From Schaalia vaccimaxillae DSM 15804 (GTDB lineage: Bacteria > Actinomycetota > Actinomycetes > Actinomycetales > Actinomycetaceae): DNA of 64,000 bases. The notes beneath the pieces are model-generated. The model did no database searches. It saw nothing but the letters and a program-made list of their open reading frames with translations, and was not told where the DNA came from. The position numbers and the translations under genes were made by a program. The DNA is taken from positions 310,001-374,000 of the forward strand of contig NZ_ATUX01000007.1 of the NCBI RefSeq assembly GCF_000420425.1, in the 5' to 3' direction. The first letter of the stretch is position 1; each line of letters opens with the position of its first letter. Below, piece after piece: positions 15,722 through 28,793 of the stretch.

Positions 15722-15819
15722 GTGATCACCGTATCGAAGGTTGGGTGGTGCGTATGGATGAGACGTATCACCTGGGTAGAAAGCCGTGTTTTTTTGATAA
15801 CGAAAAAGTCACGGGGCTG

Positions 15820-15888
15820 CAGATTGTGCAGAGGTCTCGACAAATTGTGCATCTGCACACGGAAAGACGTCATCAAGATTCGTAGTCT
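15820..15888 (+). promoter_or_regulatory. Two-copy direct repeat and promoter of the GH3 lipoprotein gene
   Basis: CAGATTGTGC (15820-15829) and CAAATTGTGC (15841-15850) form a direct repeat with a 21-bp period, two helical turns. After exactly 32 bp comes TAGTCT (15883-15888), a plausible -10 box, with no good -35. The same arrangement occurs at 18513-18581. LytTR regulators such as AgrA bind direct repeats with this period upstream of -35-poor promoters, and a LytTR regulator is encoded at 28083-28793. Binding is inferred. Confidence 0.7.
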
Positions 15889-16004
15889 GAGGAAACGTGG
15901 TTCAGGTAACTCCCGTCAACGATGACGTCGCAAACGGTGACACCGGAAAACACGAAAAACATCCCGATTTCAATGAAGATCTACCATCTTGTGAGGGGAA
16001 TTCC

Positions 16005-18398
16005 ATGAGGATCTCTCGTAGCACCAGTGCGGTCGCCGCTGTCGGCGTTGTCGCTTTAGCACTGTCAGGCTGCTCTAACGGTGATGCTGGTCAATCCGGT
16101 TCAGCTGAGGGCGCGGACGGCAACACCTACGTCACCGCCGAGCTGACCGACGGCAAGACCGAATTCACTCAGGTCAAGAACCCCAACGGCGGACAGACAT
16201 TGTCGTTTGCCACCGGCGGTTCCATGAAGGTCATCGAAGCCAAAGATGGCGACTACACCTACGCCTTTAAGGATCTCAACGGCAACGGTGAGTTGGATCC
16301 TGCCGAAGACTGGCGACTTGACGCCTCCGAGCGCGCGCAGGCGTATGTTGCTGGTCTGACCAAGGAACAGATGAGTGGCCTCATGCTCTTTTCTTCCCAC
16401 GAGCGCGCTCCCGGCGATGGCCTGACCGACGATCAGAAGACCTACCTGTCCGAGTCTTACCTGCGAAATGTTCTCAATGCTGGTCCGTCTGACGTCAAGA
16501 TGAATGTTCAATGGGTCAATGAGATGCAGGCCTACGTGGAGACTCTCGGCTCCGCTGAGACACCGTACATTCCTGTGAATTACTCGTCGGATCCGCGCTC
16601 AGATGCCTCTCAGGCGTCCACCTTCTCCGAGACTGGCACGATTTCTTCGTGGCCTTCATCCCTGGGACTGGCTGCGACTTTTAATCCTAATACTGTCCTC
16701 CAGTTTGGTCAGATGGCATCGCAGGAGTACAAGGCCCTCGGCATCGCCACAGCACTATCGCCGCAGATTGATCTGGCGACTGAGCCACGGTGGCTACGTG
16801 TATCGGGAACTTTCGGTGAGGATGCACAGATGGCCGGTGCAATGGCAAAGGCCTATGTGGATGGTTTCCAGGGCACCTACTCCGAGGGCGGAGAAAACAC
16901 TGGCTGGGGCAATGACTCCGTCAATGCGATGATCAAACATTGGCCCGGTGACGGAGCGGGTGAAGGTGGACGCGAATCCCACACCAATGCTGGCAAGTAC
17001 GAGGTTATGGTCGGTGGAAACTCTGCTGAACACCTGGCAGTCTTCCAGGAGGCTCTGGATGCCGCTTCTGTGATGACCTCCTACTCGGTGACCCTCGATG
17101 CCAACGGCGAACCGGTCTACACCGATCGCATGGGATCCTCCTATGATGCTGGCAAACTCAAGGCTTTGCGTGAAGACAATGGCTTCAACGGTGTCATCTG
17201 CACCGACTGGGGCGTCACGAACGCTACGACTGATCCCGATGCTTTTATTGCCACAGGCTGGGGCGTTGAATCCATGACGAAGGAAGAACGTCACTACAAG
17301 ATCATCCAGAACGGCACTGACATGTTCGGCGGTAATAACGATGCTGCGCCCGTTCTGGCTGCCTACGACATGTGGCAAAAGGACTTTGAAGCTGGCACCA
17401 ATGAAGTTGATGCTCAGACCCGCTGGCAGCAGTCTGCTCAGCGTGTCCTAACGATGGTGTTCAATGCTGATGCCTTCGACAACCCCTTCCTTGATCTCGA
17501 TGCCTCGACGGCGACTGTCGGTTCCGAGGACAAAGTTAAGGCGGGCCAGGAGGCTCAGCTCAACTCGATTGTCGTCCTCAAGAACGACGGTGCCATCACC
17601 CTGGATGAGAAGGCCGACTACTCGGACAAGACCGTGTACGTCCCCCATACCTACGATACCGGCCACCCCTCCCTCTTCTCCGCGGAGCCTGAGACCACCG
17701 AGGGACTGTCCCTCGATGAGGAACTTCTCAAGAAGTACTTCGGCACCGTCGTTACTGATGAGGTCGTCGACAATGGCGACGGTACCTTCACCTACACTGC
17801 ACCAGACCTGTCGAACGTCGATGTCGTCCTGGTTGGTATGAAGTCGCCCGACAACGGTGGCAGCTTCTCGAAGTCTGGCTGGAATGAGGCTGAGAATACT
17901 TGGTACCCGCTTTCACTCCAGTATTCCCCGTACACCGCTGATGGTGAGAACGTCCGCAAGGTTTCGATCTCGGGCGACATCCTCGCTGATGGCTCCAAAG
18001 AGAACCGCTCCTACTACGGTGCGACCTCGAAGATCTCAAATGGCGCTGACCTCGAGGCCTTCAACCGCGCAGCCGCAGCCGTCGAGGCTTCCGGCAAGGA
18101 CATTCCTGTGATCTCTCTGCTGAGCGCGAAGAACCCTGTGATCCCCGCAGAGTTCGAAGCTAAGGCCGATGCGATTATTGTCGGCTTCGGTACAGCTCAG
18201 GAAGCTCTGATTCAGATCGCTCTTGGACTGCACGACTCCAACGGTCGCCTGCCTATTCAGTTCCCTGCGAATATGGATACGGTTGAAGCAAATAAGGAAG
18301 ACGTTGCCAAAGACGTGACGCCTTACACCGATTCGAAGGGTAATGCCTACGACTACGGTTTCGGCCTTCACCTGGACGGATCAGTGATCTCCGACTGA
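16005..18398 (+). CDS. Glycoside hydrolase family 3 lipoprotein
   Basis: This 797-residue enzyme is probably an exported, lipid-anchored beta-glycosidase. The signal peptide ends in the lipobox LSGC with Cys23. A DLNGNGELDPAEDW motif (about 88-101), calcium-loop-like and common in one GH3 branch, precedes the catalytic barrel. KHWPGDGAGEGGRESH (about 312-327) and VICTDWG with the nucleophile Asp401 mark the active site. The second GH3 domain follows (EAQLNSIVVLKNDGAITL to IVGFGTAQEALIQIALG). No fibronectin-III-like domain follows. I chose ATG 16005 (GAGGGG upstream) because the signal peptide starts there. An in-frame GTG at 15897, eight bases after the -10 box, would bury the signal. The exact sugar is unknown. 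Confidence 0.88.
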   Translation: MRISRSTSAVAAVGVVALALSGCSNGDAGQSGSAEGADGNTYVTAELTDGKTEFTQVKNPNGGQTLSFATGGSMKVIEAKDGDYTYAFKDLNGNGELDPAEDWRLDASERAQAYVAGLTKEQMSGLMLFSSHERAPGDGLTDDQKTYLSESYLRNVLNAGPSDVKMNVQWVNEMQAYVETLGSAETPYIPVNYSSDPRSDASQASTFSETGTISSWPSSLGLAATFNPNTVLQFGQMASQEYKALGIATALSPQIDLATEPRWLRVSGTFGEDAQMAGAMAKAYVDGFQGTYSEGGENTGWGNDSVNAMIKHWPGDGAGEGGRESHTNAGKYEVMVGGNSAEHLAVFQEALDAASVMTSYSVTLDANGEPVYTDRMGSSYDAGKLKALREDNGFNGVICTDWGVTNATTDPDAFIATGWGVESMTKEERHYKIIQNGTDMFGGNNDAAPVLAAYDMWQKDFEAGTNEVDAQTRWQQSAQRVLTMVFNADAFDNPFLDLDASTATVGSEDKVKAGQEAQLNSIVVLKNDGAITLDEKADYSDKTVYVPHTYDTGHPSLFSAEPETTEGLSLDEELLKKYFGTVVTDEVVDNGDGTFTYTAPDLSNVDVVLVGMKSPDNGGSFSKSGWNEAENTWYPLSLQYSPYTADGENVRKVSISGDILADGSKENRSYYGATSKISNGADLEAFNRAAAAVEASGKDIPVISLLSAKNPVIPAEFEAKADAIIVGFGTAQEALIQIALGLHDSNGRLPIQFPANMDTVEANKEDVAKDVTPYTDSKGNAYDYGFGLHLDGSVISD

Positions 18399-18419
18399 TC
18401 TTTGGTGCATAGCCTCAGT

Positions 18420-18447
18420 GGGCGGGTCCTGTTTGTAGGGCCCGCCC
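18420..18447 (+). terminator. Terminator after the GH3 lipoprotein gene
   Basis: GGGCGGGTCC pairs with GGGCCCGCCC (one G-U pair near the loop) across an eight-base loop, 21 bp past the stop. No long T-run follows, as is common in high-GC bacteria. Confidence 0.7.
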
Positions 18448-18512
18448 ATTCACCTTGTCAGCACTGTGCTTCGATGGCGGCCCCGTTGTGTAACGGATAG
18501 GTAACGCCAGTG

Positions 18513-18581
18513 CAGATTGTGCGGTCAAGCAGACAGATTGTGCCTCAGGATAGGGGCCCTATTCTTCTGGATTCATAGACT
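18513..18581 (+). promoter_or_regulatory. Second two-copy direct repeat and promoter
   Basis: Two identical CAGATTGTGC units start at 18513 and 18534 (21-bp period). TAGACT (18576-18581) follows after 32 bp, the same distance as at 15820-15888. The transcript would start near 18588 and read into the small lipoprotein gene. It is a candidate target of the LytTR regulator encoded at 28083-28793. Confidence 0.7.
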
Positions 18582-18769: not shown

Positions 18770-19201
18770 ATGAAGAACTCGCTCCTGCGCGTCGGCCTCG
18801 TCGCCGCTCTCGCCCTGACCACCACCGCTGGCCTGGCGGCATGTTCCGATTCTTCCGAGTCTGGCGCCACCTCAACTGCCGAGTCCGCTGCGGTTCCCGC
18901 AGCCGAAGGCGACGACGCCGCAACGAAGGAAGACCTCGTGAACGCCCGTCAGGTTGTCATCGACACTCTGGCTAGCAACCCCGATCTCACCCAGATCTAC
19001 CTTGCCAATGACGTCGACAAGCCCACTGAAAAGTACGGCATGCTCGTTGTGCCTTACAACTGGTCCGATGCCACCGAGAAGCTCACCACCTCCATCGTCA
19101 AGATCGACGGTGGTAAGTACGTCATCGGTGCTCTTGCATCGGAATCTCAGAAGACCTACGAGATTGACCAAGACGGAAACATCTCCGAAGTCACCGAGTG
19201 A
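18770..19201 (+). CDS. Small secreted lipoprotein, unknown function
   Basis: This 143-residue protein has a signal peptide and lipobox LAAC, with Cys25 as the acylation site. A Ser/Ala-rich linker follows, then a domain of about 95 residues (EDLVNARQVVIDTLASNPDL to YEIDQDGNISEVTE) that I do not recognise. ATG 18770 is preceded by GGGAAAGGGAAAG. It is expressed from the direct-repeat promoter at 18513-18581 and closed by hairpins at 19201-19260. It sits between two GH3 genes and may assist them at the surface, by analogy only. Confidence 0.8.
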   Translation: MKNSLLRVGLVAALALTTTAGLAACSDSSESGATSTAESAAVPAAEGDDAATKEDLVNARQVVIDTLASNPDLTQIYLANDVDKPTEKYGMLVVPYNWSDATEKLTTSIVKIDGGKYVIGALASESQKTYEIDQDGNISEVTE

Positions 19202-19350: not shown

Positions 19351-22320
19351 GTGTCTACCAAAACAAAGAAACCGCCGATGACGAACAAGAAGTTCATGGC
19401 GATCTGGATTCCCATCCTCGCAATCCTCGCAGTGGTTGTTATCGTGGCGAACATTGCGATCGGCATTTTCAACAGCTGGATCGGTGGTGTTCTCGGTCCC
19501 GGCACCTACACCGTGACAAACCAGGAAGCTGCCGCTGACTGGGACACCGACTACTACAAGGCCGACTACGCCTCCGTTGAAGAGATGAACGCCGCCGCTT
19601 CCGAACTCATTGAAGACATCGAAGGCGAAGGCATCGTTCTGGCTAAGAACGACAATCAGGGGCTTCCTCTGTCCGCTGGCGCCAAAGTCACAATGCTCGG
19701 GCGCACAGCCGCTGATCCCGTCTACGGCGGATCCGGATCGGGGTCCGTGGACGTGACCTCAGCTGTCAATGCCCGCCAAGGCCTGGAAAATGCTGGTCTG
19801 GTAGTCAACGATGCGATGTACACGGCGATCGAAGCGGCTGCAGGAAATATCGAGCGCGCTTCCATTGAGATGGATAAGCCGGAGGTCTCCACCTACTACA
19901 TCGGCGAACTGCCGGTGGCCGAATATGAAGCCCAGGCCTCGACCATTGCCGAATACTCCGATGCAGCCATCGTCTACATTGGCCGTGGCGGCGGTGAAGG
20001 TGGCGACCTCGCCCAATCCATGGAGGGGTGGGACGACAACTACACCGATGGCCAGCATCAGCTTGAGCTCAACAAAGACGAAAAAGACATGCTGTCCTTT
20101 GCTAAGGACAACTTCGACAAGGTCATTGTTGTCGTCAACGCGTCTACCACCATTGAGATGGGTGACATTCAAAAGGACACCGGCATTGACTCGGTTCTGC
20201 TTATTGGTTCACCAGGTCTGTCGGGCTTCAATGCGGTCGGCAAGGTCATCGCTGGCCAAATCAACCCTTCAGGCCGGACTACTGACATTTGGGCCGCTGA
20301 CTTCACCAAGGATCCGACCTTTGTGAACTTTGGGGATTTCACCTACGAAAACCTTGAAGTTTCCTACTCTTCGTCGGCGCTTTCATCGGCGGCATCGAAT
20401 GCAACGGTGACCCCCGACGCAACCTTCGTCAACTACGCCGAGGGAATCTACGTCGGATACCGCTACTACGAAACAGCGGCTGTCGAAGGATTCATCGACT
20501 ACGACTCCGCCGTTGTATACCCCTTCGGATACGGCCTGAGCTACACGGACTTCTCCCAGAAAGTTGTCGCTCAGAACTTTGGCGAGGTCAACGGCACCAT
20601 TTCGCTTGACGTCGAGGTGACGAACAACGGAACTGTGGCTGGCAAGGACGTTGTTGAGGTCTACTACTCAGCCCCCTACACCAAGGGCGGCATTGAAAAG
20701 TCCTCCGTCGTACTCGGTGGATTTGCTAAGACAGGCGAAATCGCCCCGGGAGCCTCTGAAACCGTTACTGTCGAGTTCAATGTCGAAGACATGGCCTCCT
20801 ACGATTACGAGGGCGAAGGCGCATACGTACTGGAAGCTGGTGACTACGCAATCACCGTTCAAGACGACTCGCACAATATCGCCGAAGGCACGCAAGCAAT
20901 GACCTACACCGTTGAGCAGACGGTTGTTTACGGCGAGGACAATCCGCGATCCAGTGATGAAGTGAGTGCGACGAATAGATTCGAGGATGTTTCGAAGCAA
21001 TTCACTGATGATGCTTCGGAGTCCGGGAAGATTCTCAACCTTTCACGAGCAGACTTTGCTGGCACTTTCCCGAAATCTCCAATCGGAACCGAATTGATGC
21101 AGGCTTCCGACGCCATTAAGACTGGTTTTGCTGAATATGACGCCGCCGGGGCAGCCGAGGCTTTCGAGGGCGAGATGCCCACAACCGGTGCAGACACGGA
21201 TCTGACCCTTGTTGACTTGCGAGGCGCCGACTATGACGACGAACGTTGGGATGAGCTCCTAGACTCTCTCGAGGTTGAGGACATGACGAATATGCTGCTC
21301 AACGGCGCATACAACTCGGCTGCAATTCCATCGATTGCAAAGCCCGCTGTGACTGATCTTGACGGGCCTGCTGGTTTCTCGTCATTCATCAACGCCTCCG
21401 TTAACGGACCGGCCTATCCTTCAGAGTTCACCATTGCACAGACGTGGAATGTTGAGCTGGCCAAGGCCATGGGCACCATGGTTGGTAATGAATCTCTGCT
21501 CAAGGACGTTGCGGGTTGGTATGCGCCTGCAATGAACCTGCATCGCAGCCCCTTTGCTGGACGTAACTTCGAGTACTATTCGGAGGATCCGCTCCTCTCG
21601 GCGAAACTGGGGGCAGCCGTTTCCCAGGGTTCGATCGAAAAGGGCCTCTACACCACGCTCAAACACTTTGCTTTGAACGACCAAGAGACCAACCGCGTCA
21701 ATAATGGTGTTGCATCGTGGGCAAATGAGCAGGCAATTCGCGAGCTCTACCTCAAGGCCTTCGAAGCAGCGGTTAAAGACGTGTCCTCAGAGGTTACCTA
21801 CATTGCTGACGCCAACGGAAACACCCAAACAGCGCAGATCGGTTCCTTGGCAGTCATGAGCTCCTTCAACCGAATCGGCGCGACTTGGGCTGGCGGCTCC
21901 AAGGCACTCATGACTGACGTACTGCGTTCCGAGTGGGGATTCGACGGCTTCGCCATCACCGATTTCAATCTCTACAACTACATGAGCCCCGATCAGGGTA
22001 TCGACGCTGGTACTGACCTGACACTCACCTTTGCTCCGTCCAAGTCCTTCAAAGACGACGACTCAGCATTGGCAGTGACGAATATCCGTCAGGCAACGAA
22101 GAACATCCTGTACACGGTGGCCAACTCCAACGCCATGAACGGGCTTGCTCCCGGTGCGACTGTCACATACGAACCGCCGATGTGGAAGTACGCGCAATAC
22201 GCGGTGACAGCTCTTGCAACTCTCGGCATTCTCTCCGGAGCCTGGGGAGTGTGGCGACGTGTGCGCAAGCACTCTGATCAGCCGAAGGTCAGCGTTGAGA
22301 ACTCAGCGCCACGCGCCTGA
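19351..22320 (+). CDS. Membrane-anchored GH3 glycosidase with permuted domain order
   Basis: This 989-residue protein has reversed GH3 order. A hydrophobic segment near residues 15-40 leads into the GH3 C-terminal domain (EGEGIVLAKNDNQGLPL to INPSGRTTDIWA, about 85-330). Then comes a fibronectin-III-like domain (YPFGYGLSYTDF to about 510), and last the catalytic barrel (about 635-905), with NLHRSPFAGRNFEYYSEDP, TTLKHFALNDQE and the nucleophile Asp871 in FAITDFNLYNYM. A second hydrophobic segment near the C-terminus (YAVTALATLGILSGAWGVW) is followed by basic residues. Such permuted GH3s are known among beta-glucosidases, for example in Ruminococcus. The two-anchor layout predicts catalysis outside the membrane. 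It starts at GTG 19351 with AGAGG upstream. The substrate is unknown. Confidence 0.88.
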   Translation: MSTKTKKPPMTNKKFMAIWIPILAILAVVVIVANIAIGIFNSWIGGVLGPGTYTVTNQEAAADWDTDYYKADYASVEEMNAAASELIEDIEGEGIVLAKNDNQGLPLSAGAKVTMLGRTAADPVYGGSGSGSVDVTSAVNARQGLENAGLVVNDAMYTAIEAAAGNIERASIEMDKPEVSTYYIGELPVAEYEAQASTIAEYSDAAIVYIGRGGGEGGDLAQSMEGWDDNYTDGQHQLELNKDEKDMLSFAKDNFDKVIVVVNASTTIEMGDIQKDTGIDSVLLIGSPGLSGFNAVGKVIAGQINPSGRTTDIWAADFTKDPTFVNFGDFTYENLEVSYSSSALSSAASNATVTPDATFVNYAEGIYVGYRYYETAAVEGFIDYDSAVVYPFGYGLSYTDFSQKVVAQNFGEVNGTISLDVEVTNNGTVAGKDVVEVYYSAPYTKGGIEKSSVVLGGFAKTGEIAPGASETVTVEFNVEDMASYDYEGEGAYVLEAGDYAITVQDDSHNIAEGTQAMTYTVEQTVVYGEDNPRSSDEVSATNRFEDVSKQFTDDASESGKILNLSRADFAGTFPKSPIGTELMQASDAIKTGFAEYDAAGAAEAFEGEMPTTGADTDLTLVDLRGADYDDERWDELLDSLEVEDMTNMLLNGAYNSAAIPSIAKPAVTDLDGPAGFSSFINASVNGPAYPSEFTIAQTWNVELAKAMGTMVGNESLLKDVAGWYAPAMNLHRSPFAGRNFEYYSEDPLLSAKLGAAVSQGSIEKGLYTTLKHFALNDQETNRVNNGVASWANEQAIRELYLKAFEAAVKDVSSEVTYIADANGNTQTAQIGSLAVMSSFNRIGATWAGGSKALMTDVLRSEWGFDGFAITDFNLYNYMSPDQGIDAGTDLTLTFAPSKSFKDDDSALAVTNIRQATKNILYTVANSNAMNGLAPGATVTYEPPMWKYAQYAVTALATLGILSGAWGVWRRVRKHSDQPKVSVENSAPRA

Positions 22321-22334
22321 ACTAAGGTGAGTGC

Positions 22335-22364
22335 GGCGGCGCCGGTAACTTAACCGGCGCCGCC
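22335..22364 (+). terminator. Terminator after the permuted GH3 gene
   Basis: A perfect 12-bp stem (GGCGGCGCCGGT / ACCGGCGCCGCC) with a six-base loop is followed by TTTTCT. It starts 14 bp after the stop codon and is the clearest intrinsic terminator of this cluster. Confidence 0.9.
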
Positions 22365-22512
22365 TTTTCTCATCGACAGAATAAGCAACCAAAATGACAG
22401 ATCATGCAGCCCGAGTCGAACGGGATTGTTGAGGAATTGTTCAATATCTTCAAGGCCTGCAGGTGCTCCGGTATCTCGGGCAGGCGATGGCGCATGAGAA
22501 GGGAACGAAGAC

Positions 22513-24924
22513 GTGGCCTCGACCGATAAGCCAGAACTCACCCTGCTGGAAGCAGCTGCGCTGCTATCAGGAGAATCCGAGTGGGATTCGCGCGCTTTAC
22601 CTGCCAAAGGCATCCCGTCCTTTGTCATGTCCGACGGACCTCATGGCATTCGACGCCAGCTCGGTAGCGGCGACCACCTGGGAATCGCAGCCTCTGAGCC
22701 GTCGACTTGTTTCCCAACGGCGGCCACAGTTGCAAATTCGTGGGACCCAGAACTTGCTGAGGAGATGGGCCAGGCACTTGGCCAAGAAGCCCGTGCATTG
22801 GGCGTGGATGTGGTCCTTGGGCCCGGACTCAACATCAAACGTTCGCCTCTGTGCGGGCGCAACTTCGAGTACTACTCTGAGGATCCAATTTTGGCCGGGC
22901 GTATGGCCGCTGGGTTAGTGCGAGGCATCCAGTCCCAAGACGTGGCTGCTTGCCCTAAGCACTTCGCTGTCAATTCCCAAGAGCTGCGGCGAATGGCCTC
23001 GGACTCAATTGTTGACGAACGTACTATGCGGGAAATCTATCTGACCGCTTTTGAAGTTGTGGTGCGTGAAGCTGAGCCGCGCACAATTATGAGCTCCTAT
23101 AACCGCATCAACGGAACCTATGCCCACGAGAATAAGCATCTGCTGATTGACATTCTGCGAGACGAGTGGGGTTTTGGCGGCATGGTTGTCTCCGACTGGG
23201 GTGGTTCCAACAGCGCGGTGGATGCCGCGCGAGCCGGAGGTTCTCTTGAGATGCCAGGGCCCGGACTGCACGGAGCCCGCGCAATCGTCGAAGCCGTCAA
23301 ACGCGGTGAGCTCAATGAGGCCGACGTCAGGGCCCGAGCTCAGGAAGTAGTCGCCCTCGCCCGAGGGGCACGTTCGGGTGGGCAACGTCCGACGATCCAG
23401 GCTCAAGCACACCACGACTTGGCGCGCCGCGTCGCTGAAGAATCAATCGTCCTGCTGCGTAACGAGGACGGAATTCTTCCCCTAGCGAGCGCAACCAAGG
23501 TGGCGATTGTCGGGGATATGGCCCACACTCCGCGCTATCAAGGATCGGGCTCATCTCAGGTTAATCCCACGCAGTTGGAGACAACCCTTGACGTGCTCGA
23601 CCAGTTCCCACTTGAATGCGTCGGATACGCTCAGGGCTACAACCGCCAGAGAGAACCTCATGAGGACTTAGTGCGTCAAGCAATCGATCTTGCTTCACGC
23701 GCTGATGTTGTGCTCGCCTACATCGGTCTAGATGAATTGTCAGAATCCGAGGGACTCGACCGCACCCATATGCGCCTACCGCAGGTGCAAACTCAACTTT
23801 TGGAACGCCTGGCAGAGGTCAATCCGAATGTCGTCGCTGTATTGTCCGCAGGATCATCTGTGGAAACAGATTGGGCTATCAATACTCGCGCCATCATCCA
23901 CACATCCCTTTCTGGGCAGGCCGGTGCCTCCGCTGTTCTGCGAGTGATTACCGGCGCGGTCAATCCCTCTGGACGGCTCAATGAAACGTATCCTCTTGCG
24001 TATTCGGATGAGCCGACCTATGGAAACTACCCGGCAACATCAACATTGTCGTATTACAAAGAAGGGCCCTACGTTGGGTACCGCTACTTTGCCACCACCG
24101 GCACTGAAGTGGCCTATCCCTTTGGCTACGGGCTGTCCTACTCGACTTTCGACTACGCCGATCTGCGTGTTCAGAGCGACGGTGTCCATTTCACCTTGAC
24201 GAATACGTCTGACGTCGAGGGCGCCGAAGTTCCTCAACTTTATGTGTCATCACCGGGCGGAGTGTTCGCACCAAACATCGAACTCAAAGGATTTGCCAAG
24301 GTCTCGCTCCAGGCGGGTCAGAGCACTGACGTATTTATTCCCTTTGACCGATATACCTTCCGACATTGGGACACAGACTCAGATCAGTGGGCGGTCGAAG
24401 ACGGGCAGTGGACGGTTCATATCGGCCGCAACGCCTCCGACCTCATTCTGCATGCCACGCACCAGGTCACTGGCACTGTACCTGAACCCGCCAACAGCTC
24501 TCTTGGCAGTTACTGGACCGGCAATGTGCACGACGTTACCGATGCCGAGTTCGCTGCGTTATTGGGACGAGAGATTCCCCGCGAGGAGGAACAGGATCTC
24601 TTGACCGATGCGGATCCGCTTTCGTCAATGAACCGAGCGAAGTCGAGGATCGCTCGCTCGGCCGCTCGTTTCCTGCACAAGAAGAAAGCACAGGCGGACG
24701 CAACAGGAAAACCGGATCTCAATATCCTTTTCATCCTCAATATGCCTTTCAGGACGATGGGCAAGATGACTCGAGGCATGGTGTCTGACGAGATGGTTGA
24801 CGGCATTGTCGACCTGGTCAATGCGCGTACCTGGCGTGGCCTTAAAACCGTCGTTGGTGGATACCTTAGGAACCGCCGTGCGGATCGGCGCACACAACGA
24901 GAACTCGACGGACACTCGTCTTAA
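22513..24924 (+). CDS. GH3 beta-glucosidase, canonical domain order
   Basis: This 803-residue enzyme has no signal peptide, so it probably acts on imported beta-glycosides. The catalytic barrel comes first (MSDGPHGIR, KRSPLCGRNFEYYSEDP, ACPKHFAVNSQE, nucleophile Asp228 in MVVSDWGG). The GH3 C-terminal domain (RVAEESIVLLRNEDGILPL, QGSGSSQVNPTQ) and a fibronectin-III-like domain (YPFGYGLSYSTFDY, about 535-660) follow. A C-terminal helical extension of about 130 residues (about 670-803) is seen in several gut GH3 enzymes. The start is GTG 22513. It follows a strong terminator, so it has its own promoter, and it is followed by the gtrA-like gene 48 bp later. Confidence 0.9.
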   Translation: MASTDKPELTLLEAAALLSGESEWDSRALPAKGIPSFVMSDGPHGIRRQLGSGDHLGIAASEPSTCFPTAATVANSWDPELAEEMGQALGQEARALGVDVVLGPGLNIKRSPLCGRNFEYYSEDPILAGRMAAGLVRGIQSQDVAACPKHFAVNSQELRRMASDSIVDERTMREIYLTAFEVVVREAEPRTIMSSYNRINGTYAHENKHLLIDILRDEWGFGGMVVSDWGGSNSAVDAARAGGSLEMPGPGLHGARAIVEAVKRGELNEADVRARAQEVVALARGARSGGQRPTIQAQAHHDLARRVAEESIVLLRNEDGILPLASATKVAIVGDMAHTPRYQGSGSSQVNPTQLETTLDVLDQFPLECVGYAQGYNRQREPHEDLVRQAIDLASRADVVLAYIGLDELSESEGLDRTHMRLPQVQTQLLERLAEVNPNVVAVLSAGSSVETDWAINTRAIIHTSLSGQAGASAVLRVITGAVNPSGRLNETYPLAYSDEPTYGNYPATSTLSYYKEGPYVGYRYFATTGTEVAYPFGYGLSYSTFDYADLRVQSDGVHFTLTNTSDVEGAEVPQLYVSSPGGVFAPNIELKGFAKVSLQAGQSTDVFIPFDRYTFRHWDTDSDQWAVEDGQWTVHIGRNASDLILHATHQVTGTVPEPANSSLGSYWTGNVHDVTDAEFAALLGREIPREEEQDLLTDADPLSSMNRAKSRIARSAARFLHKKKAQADATGKPDLNILFILNMPFRTMGKMTRGMVSDEMVDGIVDLVNARTWRGLKTVVGGYLRNRRADRRTQRELDGHSS

Positions 24925-24972: not shown

Positions 24973-25572
24973 GTGAATAAAATCGTCAGCTGGTGGCGCT
25001 CCTTCGAAGAGAAGCACGAGACCATCGCCCAATTCATTGTCTTCTTCATCCTGTCGAACGGAGTAACCGTTCTTCAGCTGGTGTTAATGCCGGTATTCAA
25101 ATGGATCTTTGGGTTTACTTCCTTCCAAGGAACCGCGTTCCAGTTTCTTCCCGTAGGAAGTTCGGGCGGGTCGACCGTTTACCTCTTCGACTATGCGGCC
25201 GGCGCAATTCAGGCTGACGGAACCGGCGGCGGCCTCGCATATTTTCTTGCTGTGCAAGTCACCCTACTGATTGCGCAGGTCATCAACTTTTTCGCGCAAC
25301 GCAACATCACCTTTAAGTCAAACTCTTCCGTAGCTCGCGCCGCATTCTGGTATTTCATCGCCTACGTCGTCATTACGGTCGTCGCCGCAGCCCTTCAAGT
25401 TCTCTACAAGGAACCAATCTATTCGTGGTGTATCGACGTCATGGGAGCATCCACCGGTGAGACCGTGGCAGATGTCGTCACCATGATTATTAACTCCGCA
25501 GTATCATTCTGGGTCTTCTTCCCGATCTTCAAGGTGATCTTTAAACAAGAGCCTGTCGATCAGGCAGCCTGA
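24973..25572 (+). CDS. GtrA-family membrane protein
   Basis: This 199-residue protein has four hydrophobic segments and the GtrA layout: QFIVFFILSNGVTVLQ at the N-terminus and INFFAQRNITFKS before the third segment. GtrA proteins are thought to flip polyprenyl-phosphate-linked glucose or other sugars across the membrane for surface glycan decoration. A loop of about 50 residues between the first two pairs of helices makes it longer than the usual 130-150 residues. It starts at GTG 24973 with AGGA close upstream. The GT2 glycosyltransferase encoded next is the natural partner that would make the lipid-linked sugar. Confidence 0.8.
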   Translation: MNKIVSWWRSFEEKHETIAQFIVFFILSNGVTVLQLVLMPVFKWIFGFTSFQGTAFQFLPVGSSGGSTVYLFDYAAGAIQADGTGGGLAYFLAVQVTLLIAQVINFFAQRNITFKSNSSVARAAFWYFIAYVVITVVAAALQVLYKEPIYSWCIDVMGASTGETVADVVTMIINSAVSFWVFFPIFKVIFKQEPVDQAA

Positions 25573-25696: not shown

Positions 25697-26713
25697 GTGG
25701 CGACCCAACCGTTGCTGACCGTGATCGTCCCGTCCTATAACTCACAGGACTACCTCGACCGAGCAATGACTACCCTGGTCGGTTACAACGACGAGGTTGA
25801 AGTCATCATTGTCAATGACGGATCAAAGGACCGAACAGCGCAAATTGCTGATGACTGGGCCACGCGTTACCCAACGTGCGTGCGAGCCATTCACCAAGAG
25901 AACAAGGGACATGGGGGAGCAGTCAACGCTGGTATCCAACACGCCACTGGTACTCACGTCAGAGTCGTTGATTCCGATGACTGGCTGGATCGGACCGCCC
26001 TCAACAAGGCTCTTGACGTTCTTCGTCAAGAACGTCAAGCGGGGCGCGACCTTGATCTTTTAGTGACGAACTACGTCTATGAGAAGCAAGGCAAGGCCCA
26101 CAAAGCCGTCATCCGTTATCGAAACGTCTTGCCCACTCGAAAAATGATCGGATGGGAACAGGTACATCGGTGCCGCTACGACCAATACCTGATGATGCAC
26201 TCTTTGACGATGCGCACCCAGGTGATCCGTGACAGCGGTGTTGTTCTGCCAGAACACACGTTCTACGTCGATTATCTGTACTCACACGTTCCTTTGCCCT
26301 ACATTCGTTCCATTCGCTATCTCGACGTCGACCTGTATCGCTACTTCATTGGTCGCGATGATCAATCTGTCAATGAAACAGTGATGATTTCGCGCCTTGA
26401 TCAACTCGATCGGGTAAACGAAGCAATGGTTCGAGCAATGCCAGATCCTGGCAACGTACACCCGAACCTCTACCGCTACATGTGCCACTATTTAAGGATT
26501 AATTGCGTCATTACAACAGTCATGGCGCATTTATCGGGAACTCCCGAACATCTCGCACTCAAAGACCGTTTGTGGCGCCGCCTGGAAGAAACGTCCCCCG
26601 ATGCTGCAGCTGCCGTCGAAAAAGACTTCCTTGCTCGCCTTGTCAGGCACGGTAACACAAGAGTAATTTCCAACGGCTACAAGGTTGCTCGCGCTGTTCT
26701 GGGATTTAACTGA
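25697..26713 (+). CDS. Glycosyltransferase family 2
   Basis: This 338-residue GT-A fold enzyme transfers a sugar from a nucleotide donor. It shows TVIVPSYNSQDYLDRAM, VIIVNDGSKDRTAQIAD, ENKGHGGAVNAGIQHATG and the metal-binding VDSDDWLD (about 94-101). The C-terminal half (about 150-338) has no membrane segment, so it is a soluble or peripheral enzyme. It starts at GTG 25697 after AAGGAAG. With the GtrA-like protein just upstream it may build a polyprenyl-linked sugar for cell-wall glycans. Donor and acceptor cannot be read from the sequence. Confidence 0.87.
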   Translation: MATQPLLTVIVPSYNSQDYLDRAMTTLVGYNDEVEVIIVNDGSKDRTAQIADDWATRYPTCVRAIHQENKGHGGAVNAGIQHATGTHVRVVDSDDWLDRTALNKALDVLRQERQAGRDLDLLVTNYVYEKQGKAHKAVIRYRNVLPTRKMIGWEQVHRCRYDQYLMMHSLTMRTQVIRDSGVVLPEHTFYVDYLYSHVPLPYIRSIRYLDVDLYRYFIGRDDQSVNETVMISRLDQLDRVNEAMVRAMPDPGNVHPNLYRYMCHYLRINCVITTVMAHLSGTPEHLALKDRLWRRLEETSPDAAAAVEKDFLARLVRHGNTRVISNGYKVARAVLGFN

Positions 26714-26757: not shown

Positions 26758-28083
26758 TTAAGTCCCGCTTGCGTGCACACAGCTTGGCAGTAGCACCGTC
26801 AACCGGAACCAGTTGCCGTCAATCGAGGTGGTAGCCTCTCCCGCATACTTGCGAGCCGTCCAACGAATCGACTTCACCCCGTAGCCGTGGTGATCGTGAT
26901 CGGACTTAAGAGTCTGGAGCGAACCGTCGGGGTTGTACGAAACCTCACCCACAAACCAATTTTCCACACGGATCACTGTCATCTGTCCCTGGGACGTTAA
27001 CCAGAGTTTGATGAGTCTGCGCTGTTTATCTTTGACTTTACGACTGGCTTCGATCGCATTATCCAGGGCATTGCCAAAGAGGGTAGAAATATCCATGGAA
27101 CTCATTCCCTCAAGCAACGAACCGTCGGCAATCACCGTGAAATCGATACCCCAGGCCGCACAGGTTCGGCCCTTGGACGTCAAAATGACGTCGAGAACTG
27201 GGTTGCCGCTGTGGTACCGCTGTCCGAGTTCAGCCATCGATCTGTCAATCTGTTCGAAATGCTCGATCTGTGAGTGTGGATCAACTTCGGCGCGGATCAA
27301 AGCAATCTGATGTTTGAGATCATGATGGGCGCGACTCAAGGCTTCGATATCCGTCTTTGACTGCAAATACTGGCTGTGTTGAGATTCCAGCCGTGCCTGT
27401 ATGGATGACAGTTCTGATACAGCCCTCATCTGTAGAATCCGCTCCTGTTGAGCATAAAGCGCTGCAAAGCCGCACAAATCGACCAGTGTGCGGATGTAGA
27501 ACACCTCGGGCCCTAAACGACCTGAGAATGGGGTCGACGTTGAAACGAAACTCAGATTCGACATGGCGAAAGTGATAATTGCGATCGTTGCTGTTAGCCA
27601 CAGATCTGAGCGTTCAAGGAGTAAGGGCTCGCCGGGGCGAAGATTACGTCTTTCCATGAAACCTGCACAGCCAAAAAGGGCTGAGTAGACAACTAGCACC
27701 GCGATGACAGCGGGTGGAGTGACTTTCGGTGTAGTTGATGAGAAGAAGACGTTGAGCTGCCAGAAAAGAGAGGCGACAAGCTCGGCGAGAATGAAGGCTC
27801 GCGGAGTCAAATGAGCGACTTCGACCAGGGATGCGGATGTACCCAACCAAATGGTGACTCCCATCAGGCCAACAGCAGAGAGCATCGACGGAATCCAGAG
27901 CGACACCGGTAGTTCGCCTGCAATGAGTTGAGTACCAATGAGAACAACCAAGCCGAAAACACACGAGCCAACGAAACGGCTACGAGAAATCCGATAGGAA
28001 CGAAACCACATGTAGAGCATGCAAGCCCCGGCCTCGGCCAACCCCGTGTAGAGGCGAGGAATATCAGGTAGGGCGTCGTTCAT
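26758..28083 (-). CDS. AgrC-like sensor histidine kinase (GHKL ATPase)
   Basis: This 441-residue kinase has about six N-terminal membrane helices (residues about 10-220), a coiled dimerisation segment and the phospho-acceptor region RAHHDLKHQIALIR (about 255-268). A GHKL ATPase domain follows, with the N box GNALDNAIEAS and the G box HGYGVKSIRW. This is the HPK10 layout of kinases that sense peptides or membrane-soluble signals (AgrC, ComD, VirS). Its ATG overlaps the stop of the LytTR regulator by one base (TAATG), so they are a cognate pair. The signal is unknown. Confidence 0.87.
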   Translation of the reverse strand: MNDALPDIPRLYTGLAEAGACMLYMWFRSYRISRSRFVGSCVFGLVVLIGTQLIAGELPVSLWIPSMLSAVGLMGVTIWLGTSASLVEVAHLTPRAFILAELVASLFWQLNVFFSSTTPKVTPPAVIAVLVVYSALFGCAGFMERRNLRPGEPLLLERSDLWLTATIAIITFAMSNLSFVSTSTPFSGRLGPEVFYIRTLVDLCGFAALYAQQERILQMRAVSELSSIQARLESQHSQYLQSKTDIEALSRAHHDLKHQIALIRAEVDPHSQIEHFEQIDRSMAELGQRYHSGNPVLDVILTSKGRTCAAWGIDFTVIADGSLLEGMSSMDISTLFGNALDNAIEASRKVKDKQRRLIKLWLTSQGQMTVIRVENWFVGEVSYNPDGSLQTLKSDHDHHGYGVKSIRWTARKYAGEATTSIDGNWFRLTVLLPSCVHASGT

Positions 28084-28793
28084 TAGCGTAAACCGCCCGC
28101 GTACTGAGTCAGCGCCGTCAAGAAAGGTTTTTTACGAGGGCGAGAGATTCTCAATTCGACGTTGCCAGTGAGAAAACAGGATTGGTCCTGGATTTGCTGG
28201 ACATGGGCAAGATTGACGAGGTAGCAAGAATTTGATCTAAAAAAGTCATGTTCGGCCAGCTTCGCATCCATATCTTTGAGTGTGCCGACAATGGAATAAA
28301 CATGATCTCGAGTGTGAACATCAAGACGATGTTTGATCGACTCGATATACGTCACATCATCAATATCCAGGCGGATCACTTCATTGCCTGTTTGAAGCAA
28401 AAGAGAAGAGTTTTGGCGTTTACGCACGGTATTAATGGATCGCATAAGTTCTTGCTCGAAAGCGAACCAGGGCAGAGGTTTGAGTAGATAGGAGATCGCG
28501 TCGACCTCGTAGCCTTTAATAGCAAATTGCGGAGATGAGGTGATGAAGATCAATACGACTTGATCATCGATAGACCGGATGTGTTTCGCCGCCGACATTC
28601 CGTCCATGTACTTCATCTGAATATCCATCAAGATGATGTCGTAGCGCGGCCTGTAGGTTCGGGTAATCGTTGACCCGTCCTCGAAAGTTGAGACCTCGAA
28701 AGACACCGAGTGCTCTTTTTCGTAGCGAGCCAGATAGTCCAGCAACAGTTTGCGGCTGACGGGTTCATCTTCGACGATGGCAATCCGAATCAT
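28083..28793 (-). CDS. LytTR-family response regulator
   Basis: This 236-residue regulator has a receiver domain (IAIVEDEPVSRK, phosphorylated Asp in ILMDIQMKYMDG near residue 54, and LLKP lysine). It ends in a LytTR DNA-binding domain (VTYIESIKHRLDVHTRD, FFRSNSCYLVNLAHVQQI). LytTR proteins bind paired direct repeats on one DNA face. Two such repeats occur at 15820-15850 and 18513-18543 in this same cluster. The ATG has AAGGAG nine bases upstream. It leads the two-gene operon with the kinase. Confidence 0.9.
   Translation of the reverse strand: MIRIAIVEDEPVSRKLLLDYLARYEKEHSVSFEVSTFEDGSTITRTYRPRYDIILMDIQMKYMDGMSAAKHIRSIDDQVVLIFITSSPQFAIKGYEVDAISYLLKPLPWFAFEQELMRSINTVRKRQNSSLLLQTGNEVIRLDIDDVTYIESIKHRLDVHTRDHVYSIVGTLKDMDAKLAEHDFFRSNSCYLVNLAHVQQIQDQSCFLTGNVELRISRPRKKPFLTALTQYAGGLR

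Follow-up and report, generated by a model that had tools for sequence, protein, structure and literature searches.

A conserved direct-repeat box delimits a putative LytTR regulon of GH3 enzyme and lipoprotein genes in Schaalia vaccimaxillae and related actinobacteria

Introduction

Paired repeats form the operators of LytTR response regulators such as AgrA, VirR and PlnC. In AgrC/AgrA-type pairs, the gene for the LytTR regulator adjoins that of a polytopic kinase with a HATPase_c_5 domain. Another such regulator, YpdB of Escherichia coli, is composed of a receiver and a LytTR domain and binds a direct repeat of GGCATTTCAT; in the part of PMC4847170 consulted, the repeats of LytTR regulators are given as 9-11 nt long and separated by 11-13 nt. 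The LytTR Regulatory Systems of the HdrRM/BrsRM type constitute another group, for which the consulted sections of PMC6193735 describe direct repeats that have a spacing of 11-13 bp and are strongly biased towards a position 10 bp upstream of the -35, many promoters with 16-17 bp between the -35 and the -10, autoregulation, and a membrane inhibitor as the partner of the regulator. A table of the same paper includes an example from Actinomyces turicensis, with the repeats CCCGCTTGG/ACCGCTTAG.

The locus analysed here lies in a stretch of 64,000 nucleotides of Schaalia vaccimaxillae DSM 15804 (contig NZ_ATUX01000007.1, positions 310,001 to 374,000), referred to below as the window. Like YpdB, its regulator combines a receiver with a LytTR domain, and its direct repeats have the published spacing; as in the AgrC/AgrA-type pairs, a polytopic HATPase_c_5 kinase adjoins the regulator. 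Unlike the YpdB-type systems, it has the repeat unit (G)ACAGRTYRTGC, a partly conserved linker (AANCGA), and an actinobacterial cluster whose GH3 enzymes and lipoproteins are the putative targets. The A. turicensis repeats also differ from this unit, and the partner of the regulator carries a GHKL kinase domain, in contrast to the membrane inhibitors of the HdrRM/BrsRM type. A further difference, this time from AgrC/AgrA, is that scans of nine cluster proteins revealed no gene for a peptide signal, the conserved neighbours being glycan enzymes and lipoproteins. Judged by titles and the openings of abstracts, no description of this regulon or two-component system was found in searches of an open-access library.

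Results

Three boxes in the window

Box A (15820..15850, forward strand) is composed of CAGATTGTGC at 15820 and CAAATTGTGC at 15841, whereas box B (18513..18543, forward strand) contains two copies of CAGATTGTGC, at 18513 and 18534. With units of 10 nt and a linker of 11 bp, and hence a period of 21 bp, both fall within the form known for LytTR repeats. The -10-like hexamers TAGTCT (15883..15888) and TAGACT (18576..18581), also on the forward strand, start 32 bp past unit 2 of box A and box B, respectively. Re-reading of the sequence bore out these positions, the period and the spacing, all of which had been reported in a first-pass annotation made from the sequence. That annotation recognised two promoters of this kind; both boxes are real, and a third was missed. 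Box D (22377..22407, forward strand; CAGAATAAGC N11 CAGATCATGC), which is weaker and more diverged than A and B, came to light when a matrix was run over the cluster and 34 stretches from relatives. It lies upstream of a GH3 gene at 22513, and the -10-like TTCAAT (22440..22445, forward strand) starts 32 bp past its unit 2.

A search of the window with the repeat pattern produced two matches, both without mismatches, while in shuffled sequences the mean was 0.05 matches with as many as three mismatches allowed. In the whole genome (2,338,426 bases, 13 contigs), the pattern at the same limit found boxes A and B plus one 3-mismatch match (reversed-pattern control, one match), and the degenerate pattern, again with up to three mismatches, found the three cluster sites (0, 0 and 1 mismatch) plus two 3-mismatch matches (control, none). 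These last two were rejected as further sites; one is inside an open reading frame and the other faces no start of an open reading frame. All three good boxes of the genome are located in the cluster and are thus not randomly placed; the many scattered copies that the first-pass annotation had named as evidence against its reading were not seen.

Genes of the cluster

Box A precedes gene A (16005..18398, forward strand), which encodes a lipoprotein with GH3 domains (PF00933, 2.3e-30). In 15 homologues, Cys23 is nearly invariant, and K311-H312 and D401-W402, which we take to be the GH3 catalytic motifs, are invariant. The gene is followed by a T-poor, terminator-like hairpin (18420..18447, forward strand), read by eye and absent from the scanner list. 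Gene B (18770..19201, forward strand) encodes a small lipoprotein without a Pfam or NCBIfam match. The alignment of 37 homologues has 14 invariant columns, and a comparison with solved structures at E<=5 gave eight matches, the best of which (0.18) is confined to the signal peptide, with no convincing relative among them. Gene C (19351..22320, forward strand; start codon uncertain) encodes a GH3 protein with one predicted N-terminal membrane segment. Its domain order is circularly permuted (GH3_C, Fn3-like, then GH3_N), and many of the cluster loci carry the gene.

Gene C is separated from box D by another terminator-like hairpin (22335..22364, forward strand), called by a scanner which listed 17 such sites in the region against 12.0 expected from shuffles. 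Gene D (22513..24924, forward strand) codes for a GH3 protein without a predicted membrane segment, gene E (24973..25572, forward strand) for a GtrA-like membrane protein (PF04138, 6e-05, just under the cut-off), and gene F (25697..26713, forward strand) for a family 2 glycosyltransferase (PF00535, 7.1e-29). Genes E and F are possibly co-transcribed from box D. The boxes head three successive stretches, with the putative limits A, B (maybe with C) and D (maybe with E and F).

The kinase and regulator genes are on the reverse strand. Gene H (26758..28083) encodes a polytopic GHKL sensor kinase (PF14501, 1.9e-23) with four membrane segments by hydropathy, and gene R (28083..28793) a LytTR response regulator, the proposed binder of the boxes. 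The latter matches PF00072 (5.9e-16) and PF04397 (5.2e-17), both over the curated cut-offs, and is the only PF04397 match of the genome. A comparison by eye of regulator residues with box letters revealed nothing clear; near-identical LytTR domains go with differing boxes.

Promoter anatomy

The profile of 81 aligned sites comprises the unit (G)ACAGRTYRTGC and a partly conserved linker, which ends with AANCGA ahead of unit 2. Downstream of unit 2 there is a weakly conserved A (0.5 bits), after which no position rises above about 0.2 bits before the T-W-N-N-N-T motif that starts 31 bases past the unit. TWNNNT is present at +31/32 in 50 of the 81 sites, compared with a background of 1.1% (binomial p-values for these counts ignore relatedness among the sites), and TANNNT in 32. 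No conserved -35 was seen between unit 2 and the -10 in these sites, and a sigma-70 scan listed no promoter at the boxes (three in the region versus 8.1 expected from shuffles), in agreement with the poor -35 boxes noted in the first-pass annotation.

Judged from the -10 only, the -35 position would be located about 9 bp past unit 2, close to the 10 bp described for other LytTR sites. Taken together, the 10-bp offset and the 16-17 bp between -35 and -10 given in the consulted sections of PMC6193735 lead to an expected distance of 32-33 bp, close to the 31-32 found. The box and its spacing from the -10 have the published geometry of LytTR-activated promoters. Several sites of Demequina and Tessaracoccus read TTGACT or TTGAGT at +31/32, and the element was considered as a possible -35; this was rejected, since TANNNT is commoner and the geometry published in those sections places the -10 there. 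The presence of a third half-site was also rejected, as the single-unit score profile over the 81 sites peaks at units 1 and 2 only.

From relative to relative, the units resemble one another, but the flanks and most of the linker vary. Just upstream of unit 1 we observed GTCACG (15808-15813) at box A and GTAACG (18501-18506) at box B, with similar letters in several relatives; of 53 A/B sites, 14 have an ACG whose first base is at -9 or -10, and 14 have one at -20.

Genes preceded by the box

Boxes above 18 bits were counted within 400 bp upstream of each cluster gene with a broad matrix, built partly on units found in the distant-locus scans, so that the following counts are descriptive and form no independent test: 51/85 loci for gene A, 2/65 for B, 13/68 for C and 15/69 for D. 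Ten repeated loci had been removed, and only the best match of each gene per locus was counted. No such box was found upstream of E (0/71), F (0/70), Glf (0/39), H (0/61) or R (0/61), i.e. in 0 of 302 regions, and the reversed-matrix and linker-13 controls gave 0 for every gene. Autoregulation of the HdrRM/BrsRM kind through this particular box was therefore rejected. Boxes on the opposite strand (A 2, C 2, Glf 6, R 1) probably belong to divergent neighbours.

The first-pass annotation had inferred that the GH3 lipoprotein and small lipoprotein genes are activated together. The boxes of the GH3 genes are the widely kept ones, whereas among the 65 loci the small lipoprotein gene was found to be preceded by a box only in the window and in its closest relative (L102, genome G007). 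The distance between genes A and B is 372 bp in the window and 359 bp in L102, as opposed to 47-224 bp in 12 other loci checked. On this comparison of loci, box B looks like a recent, lineage-specific gain. An exact pair, CAGGTTGTGC N11 CAGGTTGTGC, was found in Sanguibacter suarezii (L176, 17391-17421) upstream of another GtrA-like gene, next to which comes a Glf (UDP-galactopyranose mutase-like) gene; this suggests that the regulon can include GtrA-like/Glf genes and has further targets in Sanguibacter.

Co-occurrence of the box and LytTR proteins in the genus

A single LytTR match was found in each of 22 of the 35 genomes of the genus, and no match in the other 13. The degenerate box (up to one mismatch) is present in 17 of the 22 LytTR-bearing genomes and in none of the 13 LytTR-less ones (Fisher p = 7e-6, a value that ignores kinship among the genomes), and its reversed control in none of the 35. 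The LytTR-bearing genomes without a pattern match are G005, G015, G020, G027 and G031. Four of the five have boxes detected by the matrix, ahead of gene A in G015 and G020 (26.8 and 19.6 bits) and, more weakly, ahead of gene D in G005 and G031 (16.2 and 14.9 bits). In G027, which does have a LytTR protein (42% identity), no box was found by pattern or matrix. The repeats are thus mostly kept where the regulator is kept, and their absence from the 13 LytTR-less genomes, together with the location of the only LytTR gene of the genome in the cluster, speaks for the regulator originally proposed. G027 counts against the association, as does the incomplete genome G021 (70% complete, LytTR not detected), in which a C-like gene is preceded by a box with one mismatch.

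A scan of 198 genomes with up to two mismatches yielded 16 places in 14 genomes (reversed control, one), eight at cluster-type genes and eight outside the mapped clusters. A single 2-mismatch site in G046 (L238) is unlinked to the cluster. In G012, a homologue of gene C (53% identity) is located outside the cluster, on a different contig, and the degenerate box is matched exactly there (L139, G012:C18:554464-554494); no box was found in the cluster stretch of this genome, L109. To judge from this arrangement, the box moves with the gene. In L109 (G012:C17), all that was found of gene A beside the small lipoprotein gene is a part that matches residues 705-797. Near-identical 2-mismatch repeats were observed in L006 (G056) and L007 (G085), both from one other genus; the best regulator matches of these genomes are weak (E 8.6e-6 and 4.3e-6).

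The box in distant relatives

Named genomes were scanned with a profile of 15 gene A proteins, and 80 loci of 105 relatives were kept. A matrix of 26 units, from 13 sites of this genus and three other genomes, was run over these loci with linkers of 0-29 bp. Above 16 bits there were 48 matches at linker 11 and 0-8 at each of the 29 others, a count that partly repeats the seeds, as 10 of the 80 belong to genomes that had been included before; the reversed matrix gave three matches at linker 11 and at most four at any linker.

A second matrix was trained on the genus alone (20 units, 10 sites) and scored against random stretches of the same locus. It was applied to 73 distant loci (seven of Actinomyces and close kin were left out), of which 54 keep gene B, gene C, the kinase or the regulator. 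A box ahead of gene A at p<=0.02 was detected in 41 of these 54 loci and in none of the 19 that keep none of these genes, although many of the loci are closely related and the counts are not independent events. In several of the 13 cluster-bearing loci without a box at this threshold, repeats of this form can be made out by eye, though diverged. Boxed loci were found in genera including Cellulomonas, Oerskovia, Demequina, Tessaracoccus, Sanguibacter, Microbacterium, Actinotalea and Cellulosimicrobium.

Discussion

The boxes are very probably a real gene switch of a known general type, and the genes that they precede appear, from the comparison of genomes, to form a conserved, well-delimited LytTR regulon. 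We consider it highly likely that the LytTR regulator encoded at 28083-28793 binds to the repeats, and that this protein activates the promoters of genes A, B and D. The best reading of the locus as a whole is that the GHKL/LytTR pair activates the GH3 and lipoprotein genes; we infer activation, and hence co-activation, from the promoter geometry.

According to this model, two regulator molecules would sit on one face of the DNA, separated by two helical turns, at a site whose end lies 31-32 bp upstream of the -10 and some 9 bp short of the -35 position. The bound regulator would bring RNA polymerase to promoters which have no recognisable -35. Three tandem promoters would be controlled in this manner, i.e. 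that of A, that of B, with transcription perhaps reaching into C, and that of D, perhaps together with E and F. A presumed envelope or extracellular signal would lead the neighbouring membrane GHKL kinase to phosphorylate the regulator.

Other explanations of the boxes were also considered. The sign of control is not given by sequence alone, and the regulator might bind the boxes and yet repress, or act in both ways depending on its phosphorylation. We regard this as improbable, since the box is at a good distance upstream of the -10, is free of overlap with promoter elements and is accompanied by no conserved -35, an arrangement which fits the LytTR activators in the consulted sections of PMC6193735. 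It is somewhat less probable still that the boxes are owned by a different transcription factor, whose sites share the cluster by chance or as part of a wider regulon. Binding by the regulator is putative, the incomplete G021 has a box and no detected LytTR protein, and half of the 16 places in the 198-genome scan are outside the mapped clusters, all of which would suit such a factor. On the other hand, the pairing of direct repeats across an 11-bp linker matches the LytTR form described in the consulted part of PMC4847170, the single LytTR protein of the genome is encoded in the same cluster, and the box co-occurs with LytTR in the genus and with the cluster genes in the distant loci.

It is scarcely credible that the repeats arose by chance or are functionless DNA from a recent duplication. 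Box B, with its 2/65 loci, could be a recent copy, as this view would have it; nevertheless, the rarity of matches in shuffled sequences (mean 0.05) and the similarity of the units amid mostly differing linkers and flanks speak against it, and it is also disfavoured by the excess at linker 11, the transfer of the genus-trained matrix to distant loci and the gene-specific positions of the boxes.

If the boxes are indeed operators of the LytTR regulator, an actinobacterial two-component system gains a defined operator, a short list of targets and a promoter model. The conserved GH3 enzymes and lipoproteins provide a starting point for finding the signal and the role of the system, and the degenerate box is a means to find further members. 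Our guess is that the cluster serves in remodelling or sensing a surface glycan. A more detailed proposal, which we offer as speculation and think unlikely to hold in full, is a regulon extending over many genera of Actinomycetales, in which the GHKL kinase and the LytTR regulator would monitor the condition of a cell-surface glycan and induce a set of proteins for its remodelling (the lipoprotein GH3, the membrane-anchored permuted GH3, the soluble GH3 and the small lipoprotein, the last of these serving the sensing branch).

Homologues of gene A (about 48-53% identity) were also observed in eleven loci (L214, L218, L221, L222, L224, L226, L227, L228, L230, L231 and L232) from Enterococcus, Tetragenococcus, Oceanobacillus, Aerococcaceae, Erysipelotrichaceae, Treponema and Spirochaetaceae. 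In these loci, matches to B, C, the kinase and the regulator are absent, as is the box, and the gene A enzyme alone may have spread to them.
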